DNA from: Fastidiosipila sp.
GTDB taxonomy: Bacteria > Bacillota > Clostridia > Saccharofermentanales > DTU023
Reading direction: 5' to 3'
Length of the DNA: 60,180 bases
NCBI GenBank assembly: GCA_012511175.1
Contig: JAAZGO010000014.1
Span: 1 to 60,180, forward strand
In this document: piece by piece, positions 9,386 through 60,180 of the stretch
Layout: each line of letters opens with the position of its first letter
How positions within the stretch are numbered: the stretch's first letter is position 1
The notes under the pieces: generated by a model
Seen by the model: only the letters and a program-made list of their open reading frames with translations
Told to the model about the DNA's origin: nothing
Databases searched by the model: none
Made by a program: the position numbers and the translations under genes

Positions 9386-9979
9386 TTATCTGGGCTTTCC
9401 GATCCGTTCAAGCGGAAGAAAGCGGAAAAACAACTTCCCCTCGATGTCGTCCCGGGAAACAGGGCCAACATCCCGGCTGTCGCGGCTGTTCATCCGGTTG
9501 TCGCCCAGCAGGTAATACTCCTTGTCTCCCAGCAGAAGGTCGGCGTATTCTTTGGCGTGCTCCGATGTCATGACCCCCTCTTCCAGATAGGGTTCATCCA
9601 GAAGCTGGCCATCCACATAAACAAAACCGCCCCGGATGGTAATACGTTCGCCGGGCAGGCCGACAATCCGTTTAATGATCATGATTTCATGGGGGTCATC
9701 AAATCCCCGAAAGGAGTCCGCTGTCACGATATCACCGCGTTTGAGCCCTGAAGGGAAAAGACGGGAGATTTTTTCAACGAAGACCTCATCCTTGTCCTCC
9801 AGGGTCGGGAACATGGAGGAGCCGATGACCGTATTGCGCTGCAAGACAAACTGCGTGAGAGCATAGACAAAAACAAAACAAAGAGCCAGTGTAATGGCAA
9901 ATCGAAGCAAGCGCCGCCAGAAGGGTTCCTTCTCCGGCGAAGGTCTTGTCCGATACTCCTGCTCCTGTTGTTGATTCAT
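9386..9979 (-). CDS. lepB: signal peptidase I, copy A
   Basis: A 197-residue membrane-anchored peptidase that cuts Sec signal peptides outside the membrane. One N-terminal transmembrane helix (about residues 24-46) is followed by the catalytic Ser in GSSMFPTL (Ser55) and the Lys general base in [11 protein letters not shown]. The box E signature [18 protein letters not shown] is intact. It lies 33 bases upstream of lepA and 60 bases downstream of a second signal peptidase gene. The two proteins share most of their motifs, suggesting a local duplication. Confidence 0.95.
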
Positions 9980-10039
9980 CTTCTTTTGATCCTCAACCCG
10001 CTTCCTGCGCGCCTGACCAAGACTGACCCTGCTTTTTCC

Positions 10040-10720
10040 CTATTTGGGTTTCCCCACCCTGTCGAAGGGGAAAAACCGCAAAATCAGGGAACCGATGATA
10101 TCTTTTTGAGAGAAAGGCCCTACATCCCGGCTGTCGCGGCTGTTCGGCCTGTTGTCCCCCATCAGGTAGAATTGATCCGGCCCCAGTATGAGATCCGCAT
10201 ACTCCGCCACTCGGGCATCGGTCAGGACCCAGTCATCGAGATAGGCTTCATCCAGCTTTTGACCATCGATCCATACAGCCCCCTCTTTGAGAGTCACCCG
10301 TTCGCCCGGCAAACCGATGATCCGCTTAATGATATACTCCCGGCCGCCGTTTGCCAGACGCTCACGTGTAGCGACGATGACAATGGATCCACGTTTCAGG
10401 CCGGACGGAAAAAGCCTGGAGATTTTTTCAACAAAGATCTCGTCCCTGTCTTCCAGGGTCGGGAGCATGGAAGTGCCAATCACGGTGTTATGCTGCAGGA
10501 CAAAATGCCTGATAAGCAAGACTATAAGGGCTGTCAATAGGAAAGTGTAAACCAGCGACAGCCATTTCCGCCCAACCGGTTTTGGACCAGCCCTTTTCAC
10601 TTTTTTGACTGGTTTGGCATCCAGGCCTGCAAAATAGGCTTCAAGACTGATGTGTTCGGCAGATTCAGCTGACCGCTCTTCGTCTTTCCGCTTCATCTCC
10701 CGGTTCAGGGCGCGGGTCAT
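10040..10720 (-). CDS. signal peptidase I, copy B
   Basis: A paralogue of the next gene downstream, with the same Ser (IGTSMLPTLEDRDE) and Lys (YIIKRIIGLPGE) motifs and the signature [18 protein letters not shown]. It differs by a longer cytosolic N terminus (about 60 residues, charged and Lys/Arg rich) before the single transmembrane helix. ATG 10720 is preferred because AAAGGA lies nine bases upstream. A GTG at 10738 overlapping the aspS stop is the alternative. Tight coupling to aspS suggests one transcript through copy A and lepA. Confidence 0.93.
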   Translation of the reverse strand: MTRALNREMKRKDEERSAESAEHISLEAYFAGLDAKPVKKVKRAGPKPVGRKWLSLVYTFLLTALIVLLIRHFVLQHNTVIGTSMLPTLEDRDEIFVEKISRLFPSGLKRGSIVIVATRERLANGGREYIIKRIIGLPGERVTLKEGAVWIDGQKLDEAYLDDWVLTDARVAEYADLILGPDQFYLMGDNRPNSRDSRDVGPFSQKDIIGSLILRFFPFDRVGKPK

Positions 10721-10734
10721 TTCGTCCGATCCTT

Positions 10735-12558
10735 TCACTCCGGTACAGCATCAGGCAATGCTTCACCTGTTTCAACCCCTGCTTGAAGGGCCAGCCCCAG
10801 TTCATCAAGCTGCTTTTGAGCGACGAAATAGGGGGCTCCGGTCATGAGGGAGGAGGAATTTTGAACTTTGGGGAATGCGATCACCTCCCGGATGCTTTCC
10901 TCTCCTGTCAGAAGCATGACGATCCGATCCAGCCCGTAGGCCAGTCCACCGTGCGGCGGTACCCCGTACTTGAAGGCCGACAGCAGAAATCCGAATTGGT
11001 TTTCAGCCTGCTCTTCAGTAAAACCGAGGATTTTGAAGATCTGTCTTTGCAGCCCCTGGTCGTGGATCCGGATGCTCCCTCCGCCCAATTCCGTTCCGTT
11101 TAATACCATGTCGTAGGCACGCGCCCTGGCTTCTTGCGGGCAGGTCTCGAGAAGTTCCAGATCTTCTTCCATAGGAGAAGTGAAGGGGTGGTGTTTGGCG
11201 ACGTATCGCCCCGCCTCCTCCGACCATTCAAGCAGGGGAAACTCCGTCACCCAACAAAACTCAAACTTTCCCGAAGGAATCAGACCGCGCCGTCCGGCCA
11301 CCTCCAAACGCAGAGCACCCAGCGCTTCAAGTGCCGTTACCCGGTCGGTGTCAGCCACCAATAGAAGCTGTGCCGATTCATCACTTCCCGCTTTGGCCAG
11401 AGCTTTTTTGACAAAATCCGCGTCAAGGAATTTGGCAAGCGAGCCGCGGCTCTTGCCATCTTCACCGATTGAAAGCCATGCCAGGCCTTTGGCCTTCGTG
11501 TCACGTTTAACAAAGAGCGCCAGATCATCGAGTTCCCGCCGCGACATGGAGGCACCGTCAGGAACGGCAATGGCTGCCACCAGACCGCCCTTGGCGACCG
11601 CCTCGGAAAAGACGCGAAAGGATGTTTTCCCGGCCAGATCTGACAAGTCGGCGATCTCCATGCCAAACCTGAAATCAGGCTTGTCAGTCCCGAACCGGGC
11701 CATGGCCTCCCGCCAGCTGATCCGCCTGATGGGCCGCGCAATCTCAATGCCCAGGAACTCACGCATCAAGGTCGCAAGGTAGCGCTCATTGGCATCCATA
11801 ACCTCATCTTCGGTGACAAAAGCCATTTCAATATCAATCTGGGTAAATTCCGGCTGACGGTCGGCGCGAAGATCCTCATCTCTGAAACAGCGGGCAATCT
11901 GCATGTATTTGTTATAGCCCGCCAGCATAAGGAGCTGCTTATAGAGCTGGGGCGACTGGGGCAGGGCGAAAAACCGTCCCGGAAATACACGCGAAGGAAC
12001 CAGGTAGTCGCGGGCACCCTCCGGCGTGCTCTTGATCAGCATGGGCGTTTCGACATCAATGAAACCCTCCCGGTCGAAAAAATCCCGGGTGATTTTGGTG
12101 ATCCGGTGGCGGGCCAGAAGTTTCCTCTGCATGTCGGGGCGGCGGAGATCAAGAAAGCGGTATTTCAGGCGCAGGCTTTCATTCACATCCAGATCTTCCT
12201 CGATATAAAAGGGCGTCGTCTCCGCCTCTGAAAGAATACGCAATTCTGTCGTATGAAGTTCAACCCTTCCCGTCTTCATGGCCGGGTTGACGGCGCTTCT
12301 TTCCCGCAGGACGCCCCGGGCAGCCAGGACATACTCGCTGCGGACACCGGCTGCTTTCGTCCGGGCTTCCGGTGGTGAATCGTCATCAATGACAATCTGA
12401 ACCTCACCCGCGATATCGCGCAGGGTGATGAACAAAAGGCCGCCCAAATCACGCTGCTTGTGGCACCATCCCATCAAGGTCAGCTCACGGCCGACCATGG
12501 ATTCCGTCACTTCACCGCAAAGGCAGCTGCGCCGCCATCCGCCCATCGATTCGCTCAT
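10735..12558 (-). CDS. aspS: aspartyl-tRNA synthetase
   Basis: A 607-residue class IIb synthetase charging tRNA-Asp. An N-terminal OB-fold anticodon domain (residues 1-110, LTLMGWCHKQRDLGG and LFITLRDIAGEVQIVID) precedes motif 2 (QIARCFRDEDLRADRQPEF) and the bacterial GAD insertion (about 300-400). Motif 3 is HGGLAYGLDRIVMLLTGE. Length is normal for bacterial AspRS. GGAGG sits four bases before the ATG. Whether it also charges tRNA-Asn cannot be read here; no gatCAB genes are in this window. Confidence 0.97.
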   Translation of the reverse strand: MSESMGGWRRSCLCGEVTESMVGRELTLMGWCHKQRDLGGLLFITLRDIAGEVQIVIDDDSPPEARTKAAGVRSEYVLAARGVLRERSAVNPAMKTGRVELHTTELRILSEAETTPFYIEEDLDVNESLRLKYRFLDLRRPDMQRKLLARHRITKITRDFFDREGFIDVETPMLIKSTPEGARDYLVPSRVFPGRFFALPQSPQLYKQLLMLAGYNKYMQIARCFRDEDLRADRQPEFTQIDIEMAFVTEDEVMDANERYLATLMREFLGIEIARPIRRISWREAMARFGTDKPDFRFGMEIADLSDLAGKTSFRVFSEAVAKGGLVAAIAVPDGASMSRRELDDLALFVKRDTKAKGLAWLSIGEDGKSRGSLAKFLDADFVKKALAKAGSDESAQLLLVADTDRVTALEALGALRLEVAGRRGLIPSGKFEFCWVTEFPLLEWSEEAGRYVAKHHPFTSPMEEDLELLETCPQEARARAYDMVLNGTELGGGSIRIHDQGLQRQIFKILGFTEEQAENQFGFLLSAFKYGVPPHGGLAYGLDRIVMLLTGEESIREVIAFPKVQNSSSLMTGAPYFVAQKQLDELGLALQAGVETGEALPDAVPE

Positions 12559-38978: not shown

Positions 38979-39509
38979 TTAGGCCAGGGCGGCGATAAAC
39001 TCGTCCATTCCCCGCTTCAGGTATTTCTCTGTCGTCGGATCGAGGCAGTCGCCCTCGGGCGAGAATTTTTCATGGACCCGGCCGATCTGCAGCTGTCTTG
39101 TAAACAGGATGGCCTCCACTCCCGGTGCGGCCAGGATCTGGGTCAGATGCATCTGGGCGCGTATGGTCCCGAAACGGCCTGTGCTGCCTCCCAGCATGAA
39201 GATCAATTTGCCCTTGATGGCCTGTCTGCTGCGCGATGCCCAGTCAATCAGATTTTTTAAGACACCTGGAACCGAATGGTTGTACTCCGGCGTGATCATG
39301 ACAATTCCGTCCGCTTCCTGGAAATGACGGCGCATTTCGACGATCTCCGCCGGCGGATCCAATTCGATATCCATGTTATACATGGGGATTGTTTCAAGCG
39401 GAAAATGCGTGATTTCGACGGTGTCGCCGTAGTTTTTGTCAAACCAGCGCGCGATGCGCTTGTTGTTGGATTGCTGGCTGATGCTGCCCGTCACGATTAA
39501 GATTTTCAT
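38979..39509 (-). CDS. NADPH-dependent FMN reductase-like flavoprotein
   Basis: A 176-residue flavodoxin-like protein. FMN phosphate loop VTGSISQQSNNKRIA is at the start. The second FMN segment ITPEYNHSVPGVLKNLIDW is near residue 95, and FMLGGSTGRFGTIRAQ follows. Members reduce FMN, quinones or chromate. GGAGG lies nine bases before the ATG. It is transcribed separately, 64 bases upstream of speD on the same strand. Confidence 0.9.
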   Translation of the reverse strand: MKILIVTGSISQQSNNKRIARWFDKNYGDTVEITHFPLETIPMYNMDIELDPPAEIVEMRRHFQEADGIVMITPEYNHSVPGVLKNLIDWASRSRQAIKGKLIFMLGGSTGRFGTIRAQMHLTQILAAPGVEAILFTRQLQIGRVHEKFSPEGDCLDPTTEKYLKRGMDEFIAALA

Positions 39510-39606
39510 GGCTTCTCCTCCTTGCTGGAAACTTGCTGTTCAGTACACACTGTGTGCATATCTTAGTGGGTAAGGAGACAAAAAGCCGTTTCAAAGGTCC
39601 CGGTTT

Positions 39607-51519: not shown

Positions 51520-52716
51520 TCATTCAGCTTGAGGATGGCCCCGGAAAATCTCGAAGAACTTGGCTTTTGCGTAACCGGCTGCGGATGCAAGCAGCACAAG
51601 CAGGCCGGTATATGCGATAAAACGTTGCAATTCCCTGCGGCCTCCCGTAACAGCCCTCAAATAATGAGTCACGGGGATAAGGTCCGACAGCCAGCGGATT
51701 TCCCGGATCCACTGGCCCGCATCAAATAAGATGGGAGACAGGAGCAGACACAGGATCAAGAAGAAAGGGAGAATGGCCAACAGATAATCGCGGTTGGGCA
51801 AGATAAGGGTCAAGACAAAGCAGAGGCATACCAGACTGAGAATATAGGCGGCAAGTAAAAAGACCTCACCCACAAGACCTGCCCCTTTCGCCGGAAATAT
51901 CAACCTTTCGGCCGCTACAGCGAGCCCCCCTCCTGCAATCATGAGCAGGCCTGCCGCCGTCAAAGAACCAGCCAGTCGCTTGATTGCCGGTTCAAAGGGC
52001 ATGATGCGTTGGAAAAAACCAGTCATCGTGTCGTCCAGATACTGAACCGCCCACAAATAGGCGAAAACAAAGAGCAGGAGTGCCGTCAAGCCCCGCGTAA
52101 TTCCGGACATGCCAATCCCCGAAACCCCCGTACGGTCAAAGATCTCGCCGCCATCCGACTGCCTTTCGAGGCGAAGCTTGACTGGACCGGCACCACCTTC
52201 TTCCCATTCGAGGAGAAAAGCTCCGGCCTCAGTCTGGGTCAGCAGTTCACGGCTCATAAGAAAATCCATGGCAAGTTGGGGTGCGCATACCTCGAACAGG
52301 GCGGATACGACCGTCCAGCTTGTGAACAGGGTCATGGAGGCCGGGCTCATGACGCGCGTGATGATCCCCTTGTAGTCTCCTCTGTCTATCCTGTCGTCAA
52401 AATTTTGGGCAAACAGATAACCGCATTCCCAGACACGCGCGGCCACCTGTTCACGTACCTGATTCTCGCTGTCCGCTCTGATAAATTCGGTTTGTTCATC
52501 GGAGTAGGTGAGCAGCCGTCTCCATATCTGCTCACTCTTCCCTGAATCGGCCGGCAGCAAAATTCCAACCTTAAGCGTGTTCACTGATGAAGACGCGGGA
52601 AACAGGATACCCATGAAGATGCCTAACAGAGGCATTAAAAAGAGGCAGATCAGAAATGCCTTCTGACGCAGGAAACGTTTGAGCTGAAGGTTTACAAGCG
52701 CCTGAAAATAACTCAT
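51520..52716 (-). CDS. ABC-2 type transporter permease
   Basis: A 398-residue ABC-2 permease. One helix near the N terminus (FLICLFLMPLLGIFMGILF) precedes a large extracytosolic domain (about 45-215), followed by five helices (LTALLLFVFAYLWAVQYL to AILPFFLILCLLLSPILFD) and a C-terminal helix. ATG 52716 overlaps the preceding gene stop (ATGA). The open frame to 53208 runs into the other gene and is not used. Exports an unknown substrate with its partners. Confidence 0.85.
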   Translation of the reverse strand: MSYFQALVNLQLKRFLRQKAFLICLFLMPLLGIFMGILFPASSSVNTLKVGILLPADSGKSEQIWRRLLTYSDEQTEFIRADSENQVREQVAARVWECGYLFAQNFDDRIDRGDYKGIITRVMSPASMTLFTSWTVVSALFEVCAPQLAMDFLMSRELLTQTEAGAFLLEWEEGGAGPVKLRLERQSDGGEIFDRTGVSGIGMSGITRGLTALLLFVFAYLWAVQYLDDTMTGFFQRIMPFEPAIKRLAGSLTAAGLLMIAGGGLAVAAERLIFPAKGAGLVGEVFLLAAYILSLVCLCFVLTLILPNRDYLLAILPFFLILCLLLSPILFDAGQWIREIRWLSDLIPVTHYLRAVTGGRRELQRFIAYTGLLVLLASAAGYAKAKFFEIFRGHPQAE

Positions 52717-53924
52717 GCCGTCCCCTTCTTCTCCATGTGGGCAGCTCTGCAGGCGCTCCAGGCCGCAAGTATAACGACGGAAATAGTCAATCGAAGAAGT
52801 GACTCGGTATTCCCGCTGACACCATACAGGCCGCTCAGACAATCCCTCATCCAGGTGAAGGGCGAGAAGGGCAGAAGAGCTCTGACGGATCGGGGTAAAA
52901 GAAGGGGAGGAACAATACCGCCCGAAAAAATGAGAAAGAGGGACGCCACCGCTGTATTGATGGTGATTGCGGGTACAATGCCTCCGGCATTGCAGCAAAG
53001 GAAAGCAACCAGAACCGTTAGCAACATTGAGAGGATCAGGCCCGCCATGGACTGAAAGAAAAGAGGAGGTGCTTTGCTTCCGTCCAGCAAACGAAGTCCG
53101 AGCAGGGTCGCAATCAAGGGCCCGGCCAGGACGGCAGAGATGCCCAGCAACCTCACCGCTGCATAGGAAAGAAGCCTGACGCCGGCACTTCGGAGCCTGG
53201 CTGCCCATCCCTGATCATTACGAATGGATAAGTCGCGGTAATAAAGCGGCATGGTCAGAAAGAAGAAGAATAGAAGCGCGCTCAGCATGTAATGCTGTGA
53301 GATGGAAAGGAAGCCCGTACTGTTGACCGTGACCCGGTGAAGCATCTGCTTATAGCCCATCAGCCATCGGACATAGTGTTCTGTAATGCCCCTCGCCAGC
53401 TCTTTTGCCCTGGTCGGATCTTCAACTTTTTCCCTGATGACATCTTCCGAGCGGCCGACGCCCTGACGGAATGCTGCGAACATCCGGATGCTGCTGTCGG
53501 CCATCTTGTCAAGAATGACTGTCTCCAGTTGCTGGGAGGTGCGAATAATAAGCCGGGGCGGAACACTTCGGGCCGGCTTGTCAAAAAAACCGGCAGAAAG
53601 GACAAGCGCTCCCTCAGCGGATCCACTTTCGACCAGCCCCTCCATTTGGCCGGGCTGTCCCTCATGGATAACCAGGAATTCATTCACTTCGGGGTTCCCG
53701 TTAAGTGATCGGACGAGATCTGTCAGCCTTGGATCAGCATCTTCCGAGGCGACCGCCAGTGTGACTTTCGAATAACGCCGGTTTGACAGAAGCATGACGG
53801 CGACCGACCCGGCGATCAAACTTAGCGTAAGCAATACAGCCGTCATGCCTAGCAAAAAAGGCAGCTTTTTCAGTGATTGCCTGATCTGAAAGCGCAGACC
53901 GGAGACAAAGAGATTCCTATCCAT
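52713..53924 (-). CDS. ABC-2 type transporter permease
   Basis: A 403-residue permease with the same layout as its neighbour: an N-terminal helix (LPFLLGMTAVLLTLSLIAGS), a large outside domain (about 45-210) and five helices in the last 200 residues, including LFLIFSGGIVPPLLLP. The two form a heterodimer in a typical bacterial export cassette. It overlaps the ATPase gene by eight bases. Confidence 0.85.
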   Translation of the reverse strand: MDRNLFVSGLRFQIRQSLKKLPFLLGMTAVLLTLSLIAGSVAVMLLSNRRYSKVTLAVASEDADPRLTDLVRSLNGNPEVNEFLVIHEGQPGQMEGLVESGSAEGALVLSAGFFDKPARSVPPRLIIRTSQQLETVILDKMADSSIRMFAAFRQGVGRSEDVIREKVEDPTRAKELARGITEHYVRWLMGYKQMLHRVTVNSTGFLSISQHYMLSALLFFFFLTMPLYYRDLSIRNDQGWAARLRSAGVRLLSYAAVRLLGISAVLAGPLIATLLGLRLLDGSKAPPLFFQSMAGLILSMLLTVLVAFLCCNAGGIVPAITINTAVASLFLIFSGGIVPPLLLPRSVRALLPFSPFTWMRDCLSGLYGVSGNTESLLRLTISVVILAAWSACRAAHMEKKGTA

Positions 53925-54630
53925 CCGTCATGCTTTCCTGCGGGTTAAGCAAGGCATCCAGCGTTTCGCCGTCTGTTGGGAAATCCCCTGTGCTCACGCA
54001 TAAAACTACTTTCCCTCCACGCAGAACAAGAATCCGGTCACAGAAAGCACGTACATCATCAAGCCTGTGGCTGCTGTACAGAACCGCGCCGCCCTGGTCA
54101 CGAAAATCGGCTAATCTTTCAAGCACGGCAAACCGGTAACCCCGGTCAAGAGCGGGCAAAGCTTCATCAATGAGCAAATAGCGGGGGCGATGAAGAAAGG
54201 CCAGGGCAATGCTGAGCCGCTTTTGCATTCCGCCCGACAGCGTGCCAACTTTTTTCCCGGCCAGCAAATCCAACCCCAGCCGGCTGGCGATCGAATCTGC
54301 CGCGAAGACGGGACCTTTCATCCTGTGGATGCTCTGCCAAAAATCCAAAGTTTCCTTTACAGTCAGATCTGACAGGAGCCAGTCGTTTTGAGGGATGTAA
54401 CCGATATGTTCCCGGACATAGGACCGGTCACCCAAAACGGAACGGTCATCATCATGGATCTCACCGGCATCAGGGCGGACAACCTGGGCGATGATTGAAA
54501 GAAATGTTGATTTGCCGGATCCGTTATGCCCAACAAGACCCACCACCTCGCCTGCCTGAAGTGACAGTGAGATGTCTTCCAGGACGGCCTTCTTGCCATA
54601 ACACTTCTTGATCCCACTTACGGTCAGCAT
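53917..54630 (-). CDS. ABC transporter ATP-binding protein
   Basis: A 237-residue ATPase. Walker A VGHNGSGKSTFLSII is near residue 40, the Q-loop is GYIPQNDWLLSDLTV, the signature is TLSGGMQKRLSIALAFL, Walker B is YLLIDEALPALD, and the switch His is YSSHRLDDV. The D-loop Glu after Walker B is in the EALPALD stretch. ATG 54630 follows GAAAGG by seven bases, with one base separating it from the YwaF-like stop. Confidence 0.9.
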   Translation of the reverse strand: MLTVSGIKKCYGKKAVLEDISLSLQAGEVVGLVGHNGSGKSTFLSIIAQVVRPDAGEIHDDDRSVLGDRSYVREHIGYIPQNDWLLSDLTVKETLDFWQSIHRMKGPVFAADSIASRLGLDLLAGKKVGTLSGGMQKRLSIALAFLHRPRYLLIDEALPALDRGYRFAVLERLADFRDQGGAVLYSSHRLDDVRAFCDRILVLRGGKVVLCVSTGDFPTDGETLDALLNPQESMTDG

Positions 54631-54631
54631 C

Positions 54632-55366
54632 TCACGCCCTTTCACAGGCCTCGCCGCCGGTTTTTGTCCTTCGTTCTGCGACTCTGAGAAAGAGGCGGTG
54701 GACAAGATACATCAGATCCAGGCAAAGCCAGTAGAGGACAATGATTACAGCCAGATACCAGATGGGCCCCAGGGCATCGTACATGGTTTCCAGAACCGTG
54801 CCGGGGTTGCCCCCCATCAGGTAGAGCGCATTGGCTCCAAAAACTGAATTGATAAAATACAGGGGCGGGAAAACGACGAGGGGGAGCGCGTGAAGATACA
54901 GGACCGTTCTCCATGGAATGCGGAACCGGTGGACCAGCTGCAGGTGAAGGGCTCCCATCACCAGCAGAACGTGACTGGCGATAAAAAAGGCAGCCCGGGC
55001 AGTCGCGGGAGGCCGGTGCACAGTCCCGGGGAAGAGGACAACAGCCAGGGCAGTTGGGATACCGGCAATAAAATTGAAAGCGAACAGCCCCCGGTTTGGC
55101 CTGACCAGGCAAAAAGCCAGCAAAAACATATTGACGTGGCAGATCTGCACCGAAAGCAACTGGGCGATGTGAAAGGTTCCGAGCGCCATATCCATGCCAT
55201 AGCGCGCGAAACGGACGGTGAGAATGAGGACAGCATAGCTAATGCCGATTGCCTTTTGAAAATCAGGTTTCTTAAGCGCGAAAAAGGTGAAAAGAAGCCC
55301 GGAAAAAACCGGGACAAGCAAAGCTGCCGCGTGAACAGTGCCGTATGGCGTAAATTCCTGGAACAT
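54632..55366 (-). CDS. YwaF-family integral membrane protein
   Basis: A 244-residue membrane protein with six or seven helices, of the YwaF/TIGR02206 family. It has HAAALLVPVFSGLLFTFFAL, ILTVRFARYGMDMALG, QLLSVQICHVNMFLLAF, the family PLYFINSVFGANALYLMGG and a C-terminal helix. Role unknown. GGGAG lies eight bases before the ATG. It heads a probable transcript with the ABC-2 cassette and may work with it. Confidence 0.82.
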   Translation of the reverse strand: MFQEFTPYGTVHAAALLVPVFSGLLFTFFALKKPDFQKAIGISYAVLILTVRFARYGMDMALGTFHIAQLLSVQICHVNMFLLAFCLVRPNRGLFAFNFIAGIPTALAVVLFPGTVHRPPATARAAFFIASHVLLVMGALHLQLVHRFRIPWRTVLYLHALPLVVFPPLYFINSVFGANALYLMGGNPGTVLETMYDALGPIWYLAVIIVLYWLCLDLMYLVHRLFLRVAERRTKTGGEACERA

Positions 55367-56008
55367 AGCTGGGTCTCCCGTTCATCTCCCCGAGCGTACT
55401 TGGCTGGTCGGATTGCCGGCGGGGATGATTTGGATATTTGGAAAGCAACACTGTCCGCCCCGATTATGAAACAGTTTTATGAAGGAAGCAACAGGAAAAA
55501 GGCAATATTTTCAGACATAAGATTCGGGGATTGCCTCCCTTTCCGGAGCATCTCCCGCTGTCTTCGCACTCTTAAAGACACAAAGCACCTTGTCGTGGTA
55601 GTCATGAAACAAAAGGTCATGTTTTGCAGAAAGAAAAGAAGAAGTACCCAAGATTATCGGAACATTATCCTGGCGGTCGGAAACGGGCGGAAAACTCGAC
55701 CGTCAAACCATGTGACTTTGCAATATCTGCCAAGAGCAGACCACATCCCGCCTTATTTCCAACAACACTCGCACATGACACGGGACGATCAAGAACATTA
55801 TGGATTTCGCGGCATGTGATTAAGCTTTAACGCTAACCTATTTCCCTTGAAGGCTGGTATGTACAATCCCATTTCAACCCTCCAACGTCCCGGCCGGTTG
55901 CAGAGCGCAATGCCCTGCAATCCACCCGTTTGTTTAAGATCCATCCGGTCAGTATGCTATGATCTACGAGGTGAACAGGAAGCATTTATTTTTCGGAGGA
56001 TCCCCGTC
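55367..56008. other. 642-base intergenic stretch
   Basis: Divergent region between the YwaF-like and YgeY-like genes. A 309-codon plus-strand frame runs into it from the antisense of the YwaF gene but lacks a ribosome site and looks like chance. The only signals seen are the -10 of the YgeY gene and its GGAGG site. The rest carries nothing I recognise. Confidence 0.45.
55955..55963 (+). promoter_or_regulatory. extended -10 promoter for the YgeY-like gene
   Basis: TGCTATGAT, an extended -10 (TGn plus TATGAT), lies 46 bases before the start ATG, giving a leader of about 39 bases. The -35 region is weak (TTTAAG-like), which an extended -10 can compensate. Confidence 0.5.
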
Positions 56009-57181
56009 ATGCCGCATGGTCAACAGGATGAAACCGTCATCGATCTCTGCCGTCGCCTAATCGAGACACCCAGTGAATCGGGAAAGGAAGAGGCTGCCAT
56101 TGGTCTCCTGTACGATTATTTGGGCCAAAACGGCGTTCAGGACCTTTACATCGACCCTTTTGGCAGCCTGATCGCGTCAGCCGGGGGCGGCCGGCCGGGA
56201 CCGGTTCTCCTGTTCGATGGCCACATCGACACAGTCCCCGTCCCCGACCCCGGCGCCTGGACCCGGCCGCCCTATGGCGGACTGGTTGACGGGAACCGGA
56301 TCTTTGGCCGGGGCAGCTCAGATATGAAAGGCGCCCTGGCCGCCATGGCAGCGGCCGCCACCCAGTTCATCAAAGCCAACGGAGGTGATTTTAAAGGTAC
56401 CCTGGTTTTAGCCGCGACCGTTCAGGAGGAGATTTTCGAGGGGGTAGCCGCCCGCGCTGTCTCCGAATACTGCAAACCGGACGTGGTCGTGATTGGCGAA
56501 GCAACCGCCCTCAATCTGAACATTGGCCAGCGGGGCAGGGCGGAAATCAAAATTGAGACCTTCGGTATTCCCGCCCACTCCTCCAACCCTGAAAAAGGGC
56601 GGAATGCTGTCTACCTGATGGCCGATGCCATCGGCAGGCTGAGGAATCTTCCGCCTCCCCGGCACCCGCTCCTCGGGGCAGGCATTATGGAGCTGACCGA
56701 CATCAAGTCGGAACCTTACCCGGGCGCCTCGGTCGTCCCCTCCTACTGTGCCGCCACCTATGACCGCCGCCTGCTTCCCGGTGAACAGCCTGACCAGGTG
56801 CTGGCGCCGGTCCAAGCCCTTCTCGCTGAATTGGGGGAGGCAGTTCAAGCTTCTTACGCATCCGGGAGGCAAGTCTGCTATACGGGGAAGATCATGGAAG
56901 CCGAGCGGTTTTTCCCCGGCTGGCTTTTTGATGAGCAAGAATGGTTCGTCCAAAAAGCCTTTCATGACCTGAAAAGGACCGGGCTTGACATCCATTTGTC
57001 TCATTACAGCTTTTGCACCAACGGCAGTCATTACGCCGGCGAAAAGAAGATCCCCACCCTGGGTTTCGGACCATCATATGAAGAACTGGCCCACACCGTT
57101 GATGAGTACATCGAGCTGGACCAACTCGTTGGGGCTGTTCGGGGCTACCGGGCTCTCATGGAGGCTTTTCTGACAGATTAA
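56009..57181 (+). CDS. ygeY: YgeY-type M20-family metallohydrolase
   Basis: A 390-residue zinc hydrolase of the M20 peptidase/deacylase family, of the kind named YgeY (linked to selenium-dependent purine metabolism in some gut anaerobes). Metal motifs: LLFDGHIDTVPVPDPG, GRGSSDMKGALAAMAAA, AATVQEEIFEGVAAR (catalytic Glu) and PTLGFGPSYEELAHTVDEYI with the last His. ATG 56009 with GGAGG eight bases upstream is used; the open frame to 55847 lacks a ribosome site. Substrate unknown; guanine deaminase nearby fits a purine theme loosely. Confidence 0.82.
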   Translation: MPHGQQDETVIDLCRRLIETPSESGKEEAAIGLLYDYLGQNGVQDLYIDPFGSLIASAGGGRPGPVLLFDGHIDTVPVPDPGAWTRPPYGGLVDGNRIFGRGSSDMKGALAAMAAAATQFIKANGGDFKGTLVLAATVQEEIFEGVAARAVSEYCKPDVVVIGEATALNLNIGQRGRAEIKIETFGIPAHSSNPEKGRNAVYLMADAIGRLRNLPPPRHPLLGAGIMELTDIKSEPYPGASVVPSYCAATYDRRLLPGEQPDQVLAPVQALLAELGEAVQASYASGRQVCYTGKIMEAERFFPGWLFDEQEWFVQKAFHDLKRTGLDIHLSHYSFCTNGSHYAGEKKIPTLGFGPSYEELAHTVDEYIELDQLVGAVRGYRALMEAFLTD

Positions 57182-57186
57182 ACGCT

Positions 57187-57246
57187 GCCTGCCCCTAGCT
57201 GATAAACAAGATGAACTGCGACTTATCGGCATCATTCAGCATGGCC
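57187..57246 (-). pseudogene. duplicated 3' tail of the persulfide oxidoreductase gene
   Basis: The minus strand reads MLNDADKSQFILFIS and a stop, nearly identical (one residue changed) to the last residues MLNDADKSQFTLFIS of the gene that ends at 57453. Only about 60 bases are kept, with five or so base changes. It appears to be the end of a second copy whose body was deleted. Confidence 0.75.
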
Positions 57247-57293
57247 CTTGCTCATTCCATCGTTCTTCACTTAACGGAAAAATTCAGGTAAAT

Positions 57294-57365
57294 CCGAAGT
57301 TTTTACGATGAACCCGAAAAACTTTGGAATTTCTGAAGTTTTTACGATGGATCGGAAAAACTTCC
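57294..57365. repeat. two tandem 39-base hairpin repeats
   Basis: Each unit has GAAGTTTTTACGATG then a partner AAAAACTT. Stem 1 is AAGTTTTT/AAAAACTT (57297-57304 / 57317-57324). Stem 2 is GAAGTTTTT/AAAAACTTC (57335-57343 / 57356-57364). Both have 12-base loops starting ACGATG. A weaker third unit may lie at 57265-57290. Confidence 0.7.
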
Positions 57366-57402
57366 AAAAACATCTGCACGGCCAAATCCGTCAGAGAAGG
57401 AT

Positions 57403-57428
57403 GAAAAAGAGCCGGCTGAACCGGCTCC
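57403..57428 (-). terminator. rho-independent terminator after the persulfide oxidoreductase gene
   Basis: GAGCCGG and CCGGCTC (57409-57415 / 57421-57427) form a 7-bp stem with a five-base loop on the minus strand, followed by five T residues (57404-57408). It is 25 bases past the stop codon. Confidence 0.88.
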
Positions 57429-57452
57429 CTTCAAATCTGCTTCTCTCTGCCC

Positions 57453-59924
57453 CTAGCTTATAAACAAGGTGAACTGCGACTTGTCGGCATCGTTCAGCAT
57501 GGAAGCAACCCCGCCGATCTTGACGCCTTCAATCAATTCTTCCTCTTTCAGACCCATGACGTCCATGGTCATCTGGCAGGCCGTCATCTCGATGGCGGGG
57601 TTGGAGGCCGCCTCGCGGACCAGATCCTCCAGAGAGGTGATGCCCTTGTCCTTCATGACTTTTCTCATCATTTTCGGCGCCACACCCAGCATATTCATCT
57701 GGGAGAGTCCCATGCCCCGGGTGCCGCGCGGAATCATGCCGGTAAACATCTTGTCCATGAAGGCCTTCTTAATGGGGACACGCAGGTCTTTTCGCAGGGT
57801 GCTTAGCCCCCAGAAGGTGAAGAACATGTGGACCTTGTCGCCCATGGCTACGGCGCCGAGTGCGATGATAAAGGCAGCCATTACTTTATCGAAACTGCCC
57901 GAAAAGACAATGATGGTCTTGTCCTGGCTTTTGGGGTCGCCGCTTGTGACCAAAGCCGCGGACTGTTTTTTTCCGGTGCCCTTGCGGATGGATGCAGAGT
58001 AATAACCGCCGCCTGATGAAATTTCAAGGAGAGTATTGCCCGTGTTCTCACACCAGCTGGCGACATCCCGGGAAAAACCCGGGTCAGTGGCGCGGACATT
58101 GACAACCTCGCCTTCTTCCAGGTCCTTGATGTATTTGCCGACTTCAACAATGGGTCCGGGGCAGCTCAGCCCGCAGACATCAAGGTCATGAATGATTTCC
58201 GGTTCAGCCGTCAGTTCCTCGTGAGCTGTATCCATGACTCTTGTCCTCTCTTCTTTATCATTTTCTTCCTGTTCCGGCCCGGACAAGATCTCCAGGGTAC
58301 GAAGGCCGCCGAGCAGATTGTATGCCGAATAGCCGCGTTGCTTCAGAATCCTTTCGGCAACATAGCCGCGAAGGCCGACCGCGCAAAAGACCAGATACCT
58401 TTTATCCCGGTCCAGTTCGTCCAGCCGCTGCCGAAGCTGACTGAGCGGGATGGCGGCAGCCCCTTTGACCGGACTTGCCATGGTTTCCGCTTCCTCCCGG
58501 ATGTCAAGAAGAACGTAATTGTGGGGATTCTCAAGGTACTGGGCTGCGGTGACGGGGTCGGTCAGGCCTTCCAGGATATTTTCAGCAACAAAGCCCGCGA
58601 AGTTGACCGGGTCCTTGGCTGCGCCATAAGGCGGGGCATAGGCAAGTTCCAGTTCAGCCAAATCCCTGACCGTTCCCCTGAAGTGGATGGCGGTCGCGAT
58701 GACATCGATCCGTTTGTCCACCCCCTCATAGCCGACGATCTGGGCCCCCAGCACGCGACCGTCTTTGGCGAAAAGGAGTTTGAGTGTCATGGGCAGGGCC
58801 CCTGGATAATAACTGACATGGTGCATGGGATGGATCAAAGAGTAAAAATAATCCTGGCCATAGACCAGGCCTGCCCGCTTCAGCTGTTTTTCATTCATTC
58901 CTGTCGAAGCGGCAGTCAGATCAAAGACTTTGGCCACACTGGTTCCGATGGACCCCCGGTAGACTTCGACCGTCTCATCGGAGAGGATGTTGGCGCAGAC
59001 AAAACGGCCCTGGCGGTTGGCGGGACCCGCCAGCGGAATGGCCGTGCGGCCACCCAGGAGCGGCTCATCCACCTCGATTACATCGCCTACGGCATAGATA
59101 TCAGGGTCGGAAGTCCGAAGCCCCCGGTCGACCGTAACGTGACCGCGCGGTCCCAACTCCAAGCCCGCCTCCCCGGCCAGTTCACTGTTGGGCCGTACGC
59201 CCATGCAAAGAAGATTCATATCCGAGAAGATGACCGTCCCGTCGCTTAAACGGACCTCTTTGCCATCTTTGGCGAGAGACTCCAGTCCCCTGCCCAGCAT
59301 CAGCCTGACCCCCTTCTCCCGCATATGATCTTCGAGAATGATGCTCATATCCGGGTCAAAGGGAGGCATAATCTGGTCGGTCAGCTCGACCAGGGTGCAG
59401 TCGATGCCCCGTTCGACCAGGTTTTCAGCCAGCTCCACCCCGATAAATCCCGCCCCGATTACCACCGCTTTTGGGGGCCGTTCTTTTTCGATGAAAGACC
59501 AGATTCGGTCAGTGTCAGCCAGAGTCCATAAAGTGAAGGTATTGGACGCGTCGACGCCTCGGACAGGCGGTACAAAGGGTGAGGACCCGGTTGACAAAAT
59601 CAGCTTGTCATAGGACTCTTCATAAACCTTCCCCGTCTCCAGGTCTTTGACCTGGACCTTCTTCTTCTCCCGGTCAATTTTTGTCACTTCCGACCGGGTC
59701 CGGATATCGAGGCCGTACTTGGCCTTGATGGTCTCCAGGGTTGATACGAAGAGCGCTTCCCTGCGGGCGATGACACCCCCGATGTAATAGGGAAGGCCAC
59801 AGTTGGCAAAAGAAACGTGCCGGCCCCGCTCCAGGACCAGAATCTCCGCCTCTTCCGAAAGACGCCTCATCCGGGCCGCGGCCGTTGCGCCGCCGGCAAC
59901 ACCGCCGACAATAATGATTTTCAT
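57453..59924 (-). CDS. CoA-disulfide reductase/NADH oxidase fused to rhodanese, TusA and DsrE-like domains
   Basis: An 823-residue flavoprotein of four parts. Residues 1-450: pyridine nucleotide-disulfide oxidoreductase, FAD loop IIIVGGVAGGATAAARMRR, redox Cys42 in FANCGLPYYIGG, NAD loop VIGAGFIGVELAENL. About 465-555: rhodanese with VFCAVGLRGYVAE (active Cys). About 590-660: TusA/SirA with DVCGLSCPGPIVEVGKYI. About 675-823: DsrE-like, ending NDADKSQFTLFIS, with VHMFFTFWGLSTL and MTACQMTMDVMGL. Such fusions reduce persulfides or CoA disulfides and pass sulfane sulfur between domains. ATG 59924 follows GGAG by eight bases. It is a lone gene beside an rRNA operon. Confidence 0.92.
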   Translation of the reverse strand: MKIIIVGGVAGGATAAARMRRLSEEAEILVLERGRHVSFANCGLPYYIGGVIARREALFVSTLETIKAKYGLDIRTRSEVTKIDREKKKVQVKDLETGKVYEESYDKLILSTGSSPFVPPVRGVDASNTFTLWTLADTDRIWSFIEKERPPKAVVIGAGFIGVELAENLVERGIDCTLVELTDQIMPPFDPDMSIILEDHMREKGVRLMLGRGLESLAKDGKEVRLSDGTVIFSDMNLLCMGVRPNSELAGEAGLELGPRGHVTVDRGLRTSDPDIYAVGDVIEVDEPLLGGRTAIPLAGPANRQGRFVCANILSDETVEVYRGSIGTSVAKVFDLTAASTGMNEKQLKRAGLVYGQDYFYSLIHPMHHVSYYPGALPMTLKLLFAKDGRVLGAQIVGYEGVDKRIDVIATAIHFRGTVRDLAELELAYAPPYGAAKDPVNFAGFVAENILEGLTDPVTAAQYLENPHNYVLLDIREEAETMASPVKGAAAIPLSQLRQRLDELDRDKRYLVFCAVGLRGYVAERILKQRGYSAYNLLGGLRTLEILSGPEQEENDKEERTRVMDTAHEELTAEPEIIHDLDVCGLSCPGPIVEVGKYIKDLEEGEVVNVRATDPGFSRDVASWCENTGNTLLEISSGGGYYSASIRKGTGKKQSAALVTSGDPKSQDKTIIVFSGSFDKVMAAFIIALGAVAMGDKVHMFFTFWGLSTLRKDLRVPIKKAFMDKMFTGMIPRGTRGMGLSQMNMLGVAPKMMRKVMKDKGITSLEDLVREAASNPAIEMTACQMTMDVMGLKEEELIEGVKIGGVASMLNDADKSQFTLFIS

Positions 59925-60055
59925 GGGCCTGACTCCATTCTTCGAACTCATGGCTTGATTACGGGAAAAATCATAGCACAGGATGTTGGCAAAAGAGGGC
60001 TCAGCTGTACCCTGTGAACTCTTCCTGCCGGGAAGCTAAAAAAGGACAAAAAAAT

Positions 60056-60169
60056 CCGGCGAGGACCTACCTTTCCGGGCCGTCTCCAGCCAGGTATTCT
60101 CGGCACGGGAGAGCTTAACTTCTGTGTTCGGGATGGGAACAGGTGTGGCCTCTCCGTTAAACTCACCGG
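60056..60169 (-). rRNA. rrf: 5S ribosomal RNA
   Basis: On the minus strand the sequence GGCCACACCTGTTCCCATCC then GAACACAGAAGTTAAGCTC and TGCCGAGAATACC is classical 5S rRNA. Terminal helix CCGGTG/CGCCGG closes at 60164-60169 and 60056-60061. Two T runs just after the 3' end (60038-60054) probably end the rRNA operon. 23S and 16S would lie beyond the right edge. Confidence 0.95.
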
Positions 60170-60180
60170 AATGGTTGAAA

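Follow-up and report, generated by a model that had tools for sequence, protein, structure and literature searches.

A 56-bp relic of the end of a sulfur-transfer fusion gene lies beside a convergent YgeY-like gene in a Fastidiosipila sp. genome

The spacer between a gene for an 832-residue fusion protein and a convergent gene for a YgeY-family hydrolase holds a second, slightly diverged copy of the end of the fusion gene. This relic is an ordinary gene remnant of a known kind. Most likely a local duplication in the past left it behind as an ordinary scar, and it shows no sign of function. All positions given below refer to the window, the whole stretch of DNA analyzed, which is one entire contig of 60,180 bp (Table 1).

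Table 1. Positions of the genes, tail copies, and other features discussed in the text
Feature	Position	Strand	Remarks
YgeY-family M20 hydrolase, convergent	55847..57181	+	NF009555; start coordinate as predicted
Relic tail copy	57189..57244	-	56 bp; 15 codons and stop at 57195-57242; 52/56 to 57447-57502
Insert	57245..57446		202 bp; no overlapping ORF of at least 60 aa
Two tandem 39-bp units and inverted repeat, GAAGTTTTTACGATG...GAAAAACTT hairpins	57277..57364		Inside the insert
Terminator-like hairpin, 7-bp stem and five T	57404..57427	-	Just past the working stop; by eye and fold
Working gene's own tail	57447..57502	-	Stop codon 57453-57455, with 6 bp downstream
Intact 832-aa fusion gene	57453..59951	-	ORF, Pfam, NCBIfam; "persulfide oxidoreductase" of the preliminary description
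5S rRNA	60054..60170	-	RF00001, 91.6 bits; upstream of the fusion gene, at the contig end

Results

The end of the fusion gene is repeated in the spacer

The preliminary description of this DNA had reported a 60-base segment repeated 206 bases beyond the gene end. The repeat is real and lies in that place, but it is 56 bases long and 93% identical (52 of 56 bases), not exact, and 208 bases (57245-57452) separate the gene end from the relic, the two repeat units themselves being 202 bases apart. Both copies code on the minus strand in direct orientation, with a start-to-start offset of 258 bases. As had been proposed, each encodes the last 15 residues and the stop codon (MLNDADKSQFTLFIS in the working gene and MLNDADKSQFILFIS in the relic), the peptide being MLNDADKSQF(I/T)LFIS-stop, with T in the working tail and I in the relic. 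The relic further takes in 2 bp ahead of its first codon and 6 bp past its stop codon (57195-57197), the same 6 bases following the stop in the working gene, and the similarity breaks off sharply at either edge.

A chance match is excluded, since ungapped 56-base comparisons with the working tail peaked at 52 between 55447 and 57446, whereas 200 shuffles of that search in two-base blocks reached at most 32, with a mean of 25.8. A direct-repeat scan of the 60-kb window (40 bases, at least 85% identity, spacing below 3 kb) gave three matches. Two of them belong to one pair of signal-peptidase-like genes, and the tail repeat alone has a copy outside intact genes. The pair is a tandem of genes resembling signal peptidase I (named by eye) at 9386-10738, partly alike in their DNA. 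No further copy of the tail was found elsewhere in the 1.7-Mb draft genome.

The relic has the properties of a gene remnant. It lies in a noncoding spacer with significant similarity to a known gene, it is incomplete and with 15 codons cannot be expressed as the original product, and the intact parent, the 832-aa ORF, is present in the same genome. An in-frame TGA, read by eye, stands four codons upstream of its first codon. In agreement with the preliminary description, the segment is not part of a different gene but a relic of the fusion gene's own tail.

The parent gene and its neighbors

Pfam domains in the fusion protein correspond to a pyridine nucleotide-disulfide oxidoreductase (CoA-disulfide-reductase-like), rhodanese, TusA, and DsrE_2. 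The NCBIfam model for CoA-disulfide reductase, TIGR03385, scores 467.7 bits, under its cut-off of 578.8; NF007123, NF010037, and the DsrE2 model are likewise under their own cut-offs. Judged from these scores, the protein appears to stand near the CoA-disulfide reductases, below the cut-off for membership. A protein search with the fusion gave some match in 53 of 59 genomes (own genome included), many of them covering the reductase part only. The closest homologs among the matches listed, nearly full length and from the same genus, are those of G013 (Mageeibacillus sp. UBA5438; DIRK01000057.1), with 75% identity, and G006, with 72%.

The YgeY-like protein scores 420.2 bits with NF009555, above the cut-off of 321, and 237.2 bits with TIGR03526, below the cut-off of 321.5. 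Its stop codon lies at 57179-57181, 271 bp from the fusion gene but only 13 bp from the stop codon of the relic. In G013 the same two genes are convergent and 3 bp apart, with end coordinates of 4095 for the fusion gene and 4099 for the YgeY ortholog. The place of the living gene at a G013-type border is therefore occupied in the window by the relic, which probably marks the ancestral junction, as far as gene order in this one relative can tell.

The G013 contig is broadly collinear, in reverse order, with the window from ∼22 to 60 kb (about 38 kb). Identities of the genes across that stretch are about 52 to 95%, with the exception of a 41% match at the contig end, and the 75% of the fusion gene falls within the range of its neighbors and thus gives no sign of replacement by a foreign copy. 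The collinearity is imperfect: the G013 contig lacks any match to the window ORFs at 51520-55366 and carries another M20 gene beside YgeY. By eye, this block of ORFs adjoining YgeY resembles an ABC transporter.

A YgeY match of at least 44% identity occurs in seven relatives (G004, G007, G013, G015, G021, G044, and G047), and among the matches listed G013 is the only one of these in which it shares a contig with the fusion gene. The fusion gene of G006 sits beside a tRNA (by eye) and an ortholog of the window gene at 38982-39539 (59% identity). When the DNA of 57150-57520 was searched against the 59 genomes, four matched, namely, the own genome, G013, G006, and G029. The matches in G013 and G006 correspond to the working tail alone, and that in G029 is a 26-bp stretch overlapping the terminator-like hairpin.

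The own genome has two 5S rRNA genes, one of them at the contig end of the window. The start of the G013 contig, a stretch that is partly N and has no Rfam match, resembles by eye the end of a 5S gene, so that the fusion gene may sit behind an rRNA operon in both genomes.

Differences between the two tails

The working tail and the relic differ at four sites, AAC/AAT, GAC/GAT, ACC/ATC (Thr to Ile), and ATA/ATC, all in the coding part and three of them synonymous. Random changes would be expected to give a synonymous fraction of 0.22, and three or more of four has a P of ∼0.035 for these very few, unpolarized sites, a hint that the relic still coded for a time after it was copied. Threonine is kept at its position in the working gene, G013, and G006 and isoleucine is peculiar to the relic, as expected of decay. 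In comparison with G013 and G006, AAT is also peculiar to the relic and ATA is peculiar to the working gene.

Over the last 48 nucleotides, the working tail has 4 differences from the relic, 12 from G013, and 14 from G006, and the relic has 13 from G013 and 16 from G006. The two tails have TTG, AGC, and TAG in common where G013 and G006 have other codons, which indicates that the copy arose in the own lineage after the splits from those genomes.

The insert between the tails

Searched against the own genome, the 202-bp insert matched nothing else significantly (best E value, 0.3). Its two tandem 39-bp units form AT-rich hairpins with GAAGTTTTTACGATG. This hairpin pattern, with up to two mismatches allowed, is confined to the own genome among the 188 of the order that were searched, and in exact form it is absent from viral contigs. 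A repeated hairpin element of the own genome was ruled out, the searches there having turned up no further copy. Plasmids gave no match to the spacer with the relic, and phages gave five weak ones (E values, 0.3 to 0.9). By blastn against the homologous loci, the insert matched itself, its own inverted repeat, and the 26 bp of G029 (E value, 1.6e-4); the remaining matches, to a part of the insert, had an E value of 0.75.

The plus-strand fold of the spacer including the relic has a z score of -4.8, helped by the two tandem hairpins, and the minus-strand fold is less remarkable at -2.5. A structured RNA was considered and rejected: three Rfam matches are weak and fall well short of their gathering scores, with sroD highest at 26.3 of 50 bits (E value, 0.007). 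Each of them overlaps the terminator-like hairpin, and we attribute them to chance. A scanner for consensus terminators reported none in the spacer.

Tail copies and repeats in other genomes

We compared gene tails with the DNA downstream of them at 23 distinct loci, the window included, chosen among the matches listed as having more than 45% identity and reaching residue 831. Up to 1 kb was compared at each locus (84 bp in G034 and 493 to 582 bp at three others), and only the window and G034 beat all 100 plain shuffles. G034 belongs to a different genus of the family; at the end of its contig C102, a repeat with a period of 48 bp takes in the last four codons of the ortholog, the stop, and 20 bp of the spacer, 37 aligned bases showing two mismatches and two one-base gaps.

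The G034 tail repeat adjoins a sequence like GTGCATAGATTCGTGCCTGGCACC, a 24-nt repeat dispersed in genus g3 that also occurs downstream of the gene at locus L017. With up to three mismatches on both strands, GTGCATAGATTCGTGCCTGGCACC gives 53 matches in G021, 29 in G034, 26 in G015, 19 in G027, and 1 in G031, some of them overlapping, as its end is near-palindromic. It has no match in the own genome, G006, or G013, and a reversed-pattern control gave 0 in all 8 genomes. From its sequence and distribution, it looks like a REP-type family. A literature text search with its 12-base core returned, by title and abstract, medical papers only. At the left end of the window contig (1-1330), two ORFs resemble by eye what we take to be the tail of an IS21-type transposase and its ATPase.

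Discussion

Gene remnants and duplicated pseudogene fragments are a general kind of sequence in bacterial intergenic DNA. Established in the present case are the repeat, its orientation, the gene border in G013, and the codons common to both tails. We consider it rather probable that the 56-bp segment is a decaying, nonfunctional remnant of the fusion gene 3′ end, resulting from a local duplication and then the near-complete loss of the YgeY-proximal copy. The duplication, after the split from G013 and G006, would have included the 3′ end of the fusion gene and placed a second copy beside the first, the duplicated unit perhaps being the whole gene or most of it. A deletion would then have removed nearly all of the YgeY-proximal copy, leaving the last 15 codons, the stop, and 6 bp next to YgeY and the distal copy intact. 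The G013-type border would be ancestral, judging from that single relative, and the relic would be without function.

Duplication and deletion account for the place, orientation, divergence, and coding-like differences of the relic, and the tandem pair of signal-peptidase-like genes on the same contig indicates that local duplication does happen there. Several results count against them. The two-copy state in relatives, suggested as a check in the preliminary description, did not appear, there being no tandem pair among the matches listed in 59 genomes (one per species); the nearest case among these matches is G043, with a full copy and a match to residues 673 to 831 on different contigs. In addition, the insert does not match the 229 bp that the contig has on the upstream side of the fusion gene, though a tandem duplication predicts upstream-derived DNA. 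The lack of a further tail copy in the searches of the own genome, a junction seen in G013 alone of the seven relatives with YgeY, and the imperfect collinearity with G013 also weigh against them. The preliminary description had proposed a past tandem duplication or recombination in which the second copy was deleted. A relic at a G013-type gene end in the same orientation matches what a deleted second copy predicts, and to that extent the proposal stands. A whole second gene is not demanded, since an insertion that displaced the old tail would give the same layout.

Such an insertion is the basis of an alternative that we regard as unlikely, in which an element entered the 3′ end of the gene, supplied its own last codons, and later shrank to 202 bp, the original tail being displaced to the far end beside YgeY. 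Integration into gene 3′ ends leaves imperfect direct repeats over the gene end and stop, with the old tail on the side of the ancestral neighbor. The layout here is the same, with direct repeats at both ends of the insert and at the 3′ end of a gene; the insert is without a significant second match in the genome, and spacer and relic have the strong plus-strand fold described above. Nevertheless, 202 bp with no ORF of at least 60 aa hold no integrase, and no significantly related element turned up in the own genome, the order (as a pattern), plasmids, or viral contigs (as a pattern), with only weak matches to phages. Moreover, derived bases are present on both sides, at least one on each, and not on the working tail only. 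It is doubtful indeed that an integrative element specific for the 3′ end of the sulfur-transfer gene, whose coding end it would restore, has all but disappeared here and left the 56-bp copies as its two attachment sites. A smaller rearrangement, in which repair or template switching copied the tail alone into the junction together with ∼200 bp of other DNA, would suit the fact that no gene sequence remains beyond the 56 bp, and the G034 ortholog with its short tandem tail copy shows that such copies do arise. This too seems improbable, since it needs a source for the 202 bp and none was found in the assembled genome, and since the synonymous excess, though weak, points to a copy that once coded.

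The synonymous differences would be differences between strains if DNA of another strain, carrying YgeY and the tail of the donor gene, had been joined downstream of the resident gene, and the ORFs at 51520-55366 without a G013 counterpart indicate that change has occurred next to YgeY. However, gene order with G013 resumes farther on and YgeY abuts the fusion gene there as well, so YgeY looks resident, and the two tails are closer to each other than either is to G013 or G006, which makes a recombination of this kind very unlikely. Least credible of all is an assembly artifact. Although the draft genome comprises 42 contigs, the longest exact run common to the two copies is 13 bases and four sites differ; usual assembly word lengths exceed 13 bases. 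The repeat should therefore not misjoin contigs, and exact runs this short also make frequent recombination through it unlikely. A regulatory use of the relic, in which read-through from YgeY would give a 56-nt antisense of the fusion gene 3′ end, was set aside because convergent read-through yields antisense without any relic.

Duplication with loss of the YgeY-proximal copy thus remains the reading that we prefer, and the relic is a clean small case in which the origin of a remnant can be read from gene order: the ancestral border seems to be held by the relic and not by the living gene. This changes no view of function and is of use for annotation, in that there is no gene to call at the relic. 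It also carries a caution, as a direct repeat of a gene tail need not imply a mobile element.

Among known systems, the scars that integrative elements leave at gene 3′ ends are alike in having an imperfect direct repeat of the gene end with the old tail on the neighbor side, whereas here there is no integrase, element, or demonstrated crossover core; a literature search on gene-3′-end integration returned a Klebsiella paper only, and one on bacterial gene remnants gave, among others, PMC522871 and PMC9336565. The tail duplication in G034 is similar in that the last four codons and the stop recur downstream of the orthologous gene, but it is a tandem with a 48-bp period beside a relative of a dispersed repeat, and it is taken as an independent event. 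With bacterial gene remnants as a general kind, the relic has in common that it is a short, slightly diverged copy in a spacer near the intact gene. It differs from them in having been reduced to the last 15 codons and in probably marking an ancestral gene border.
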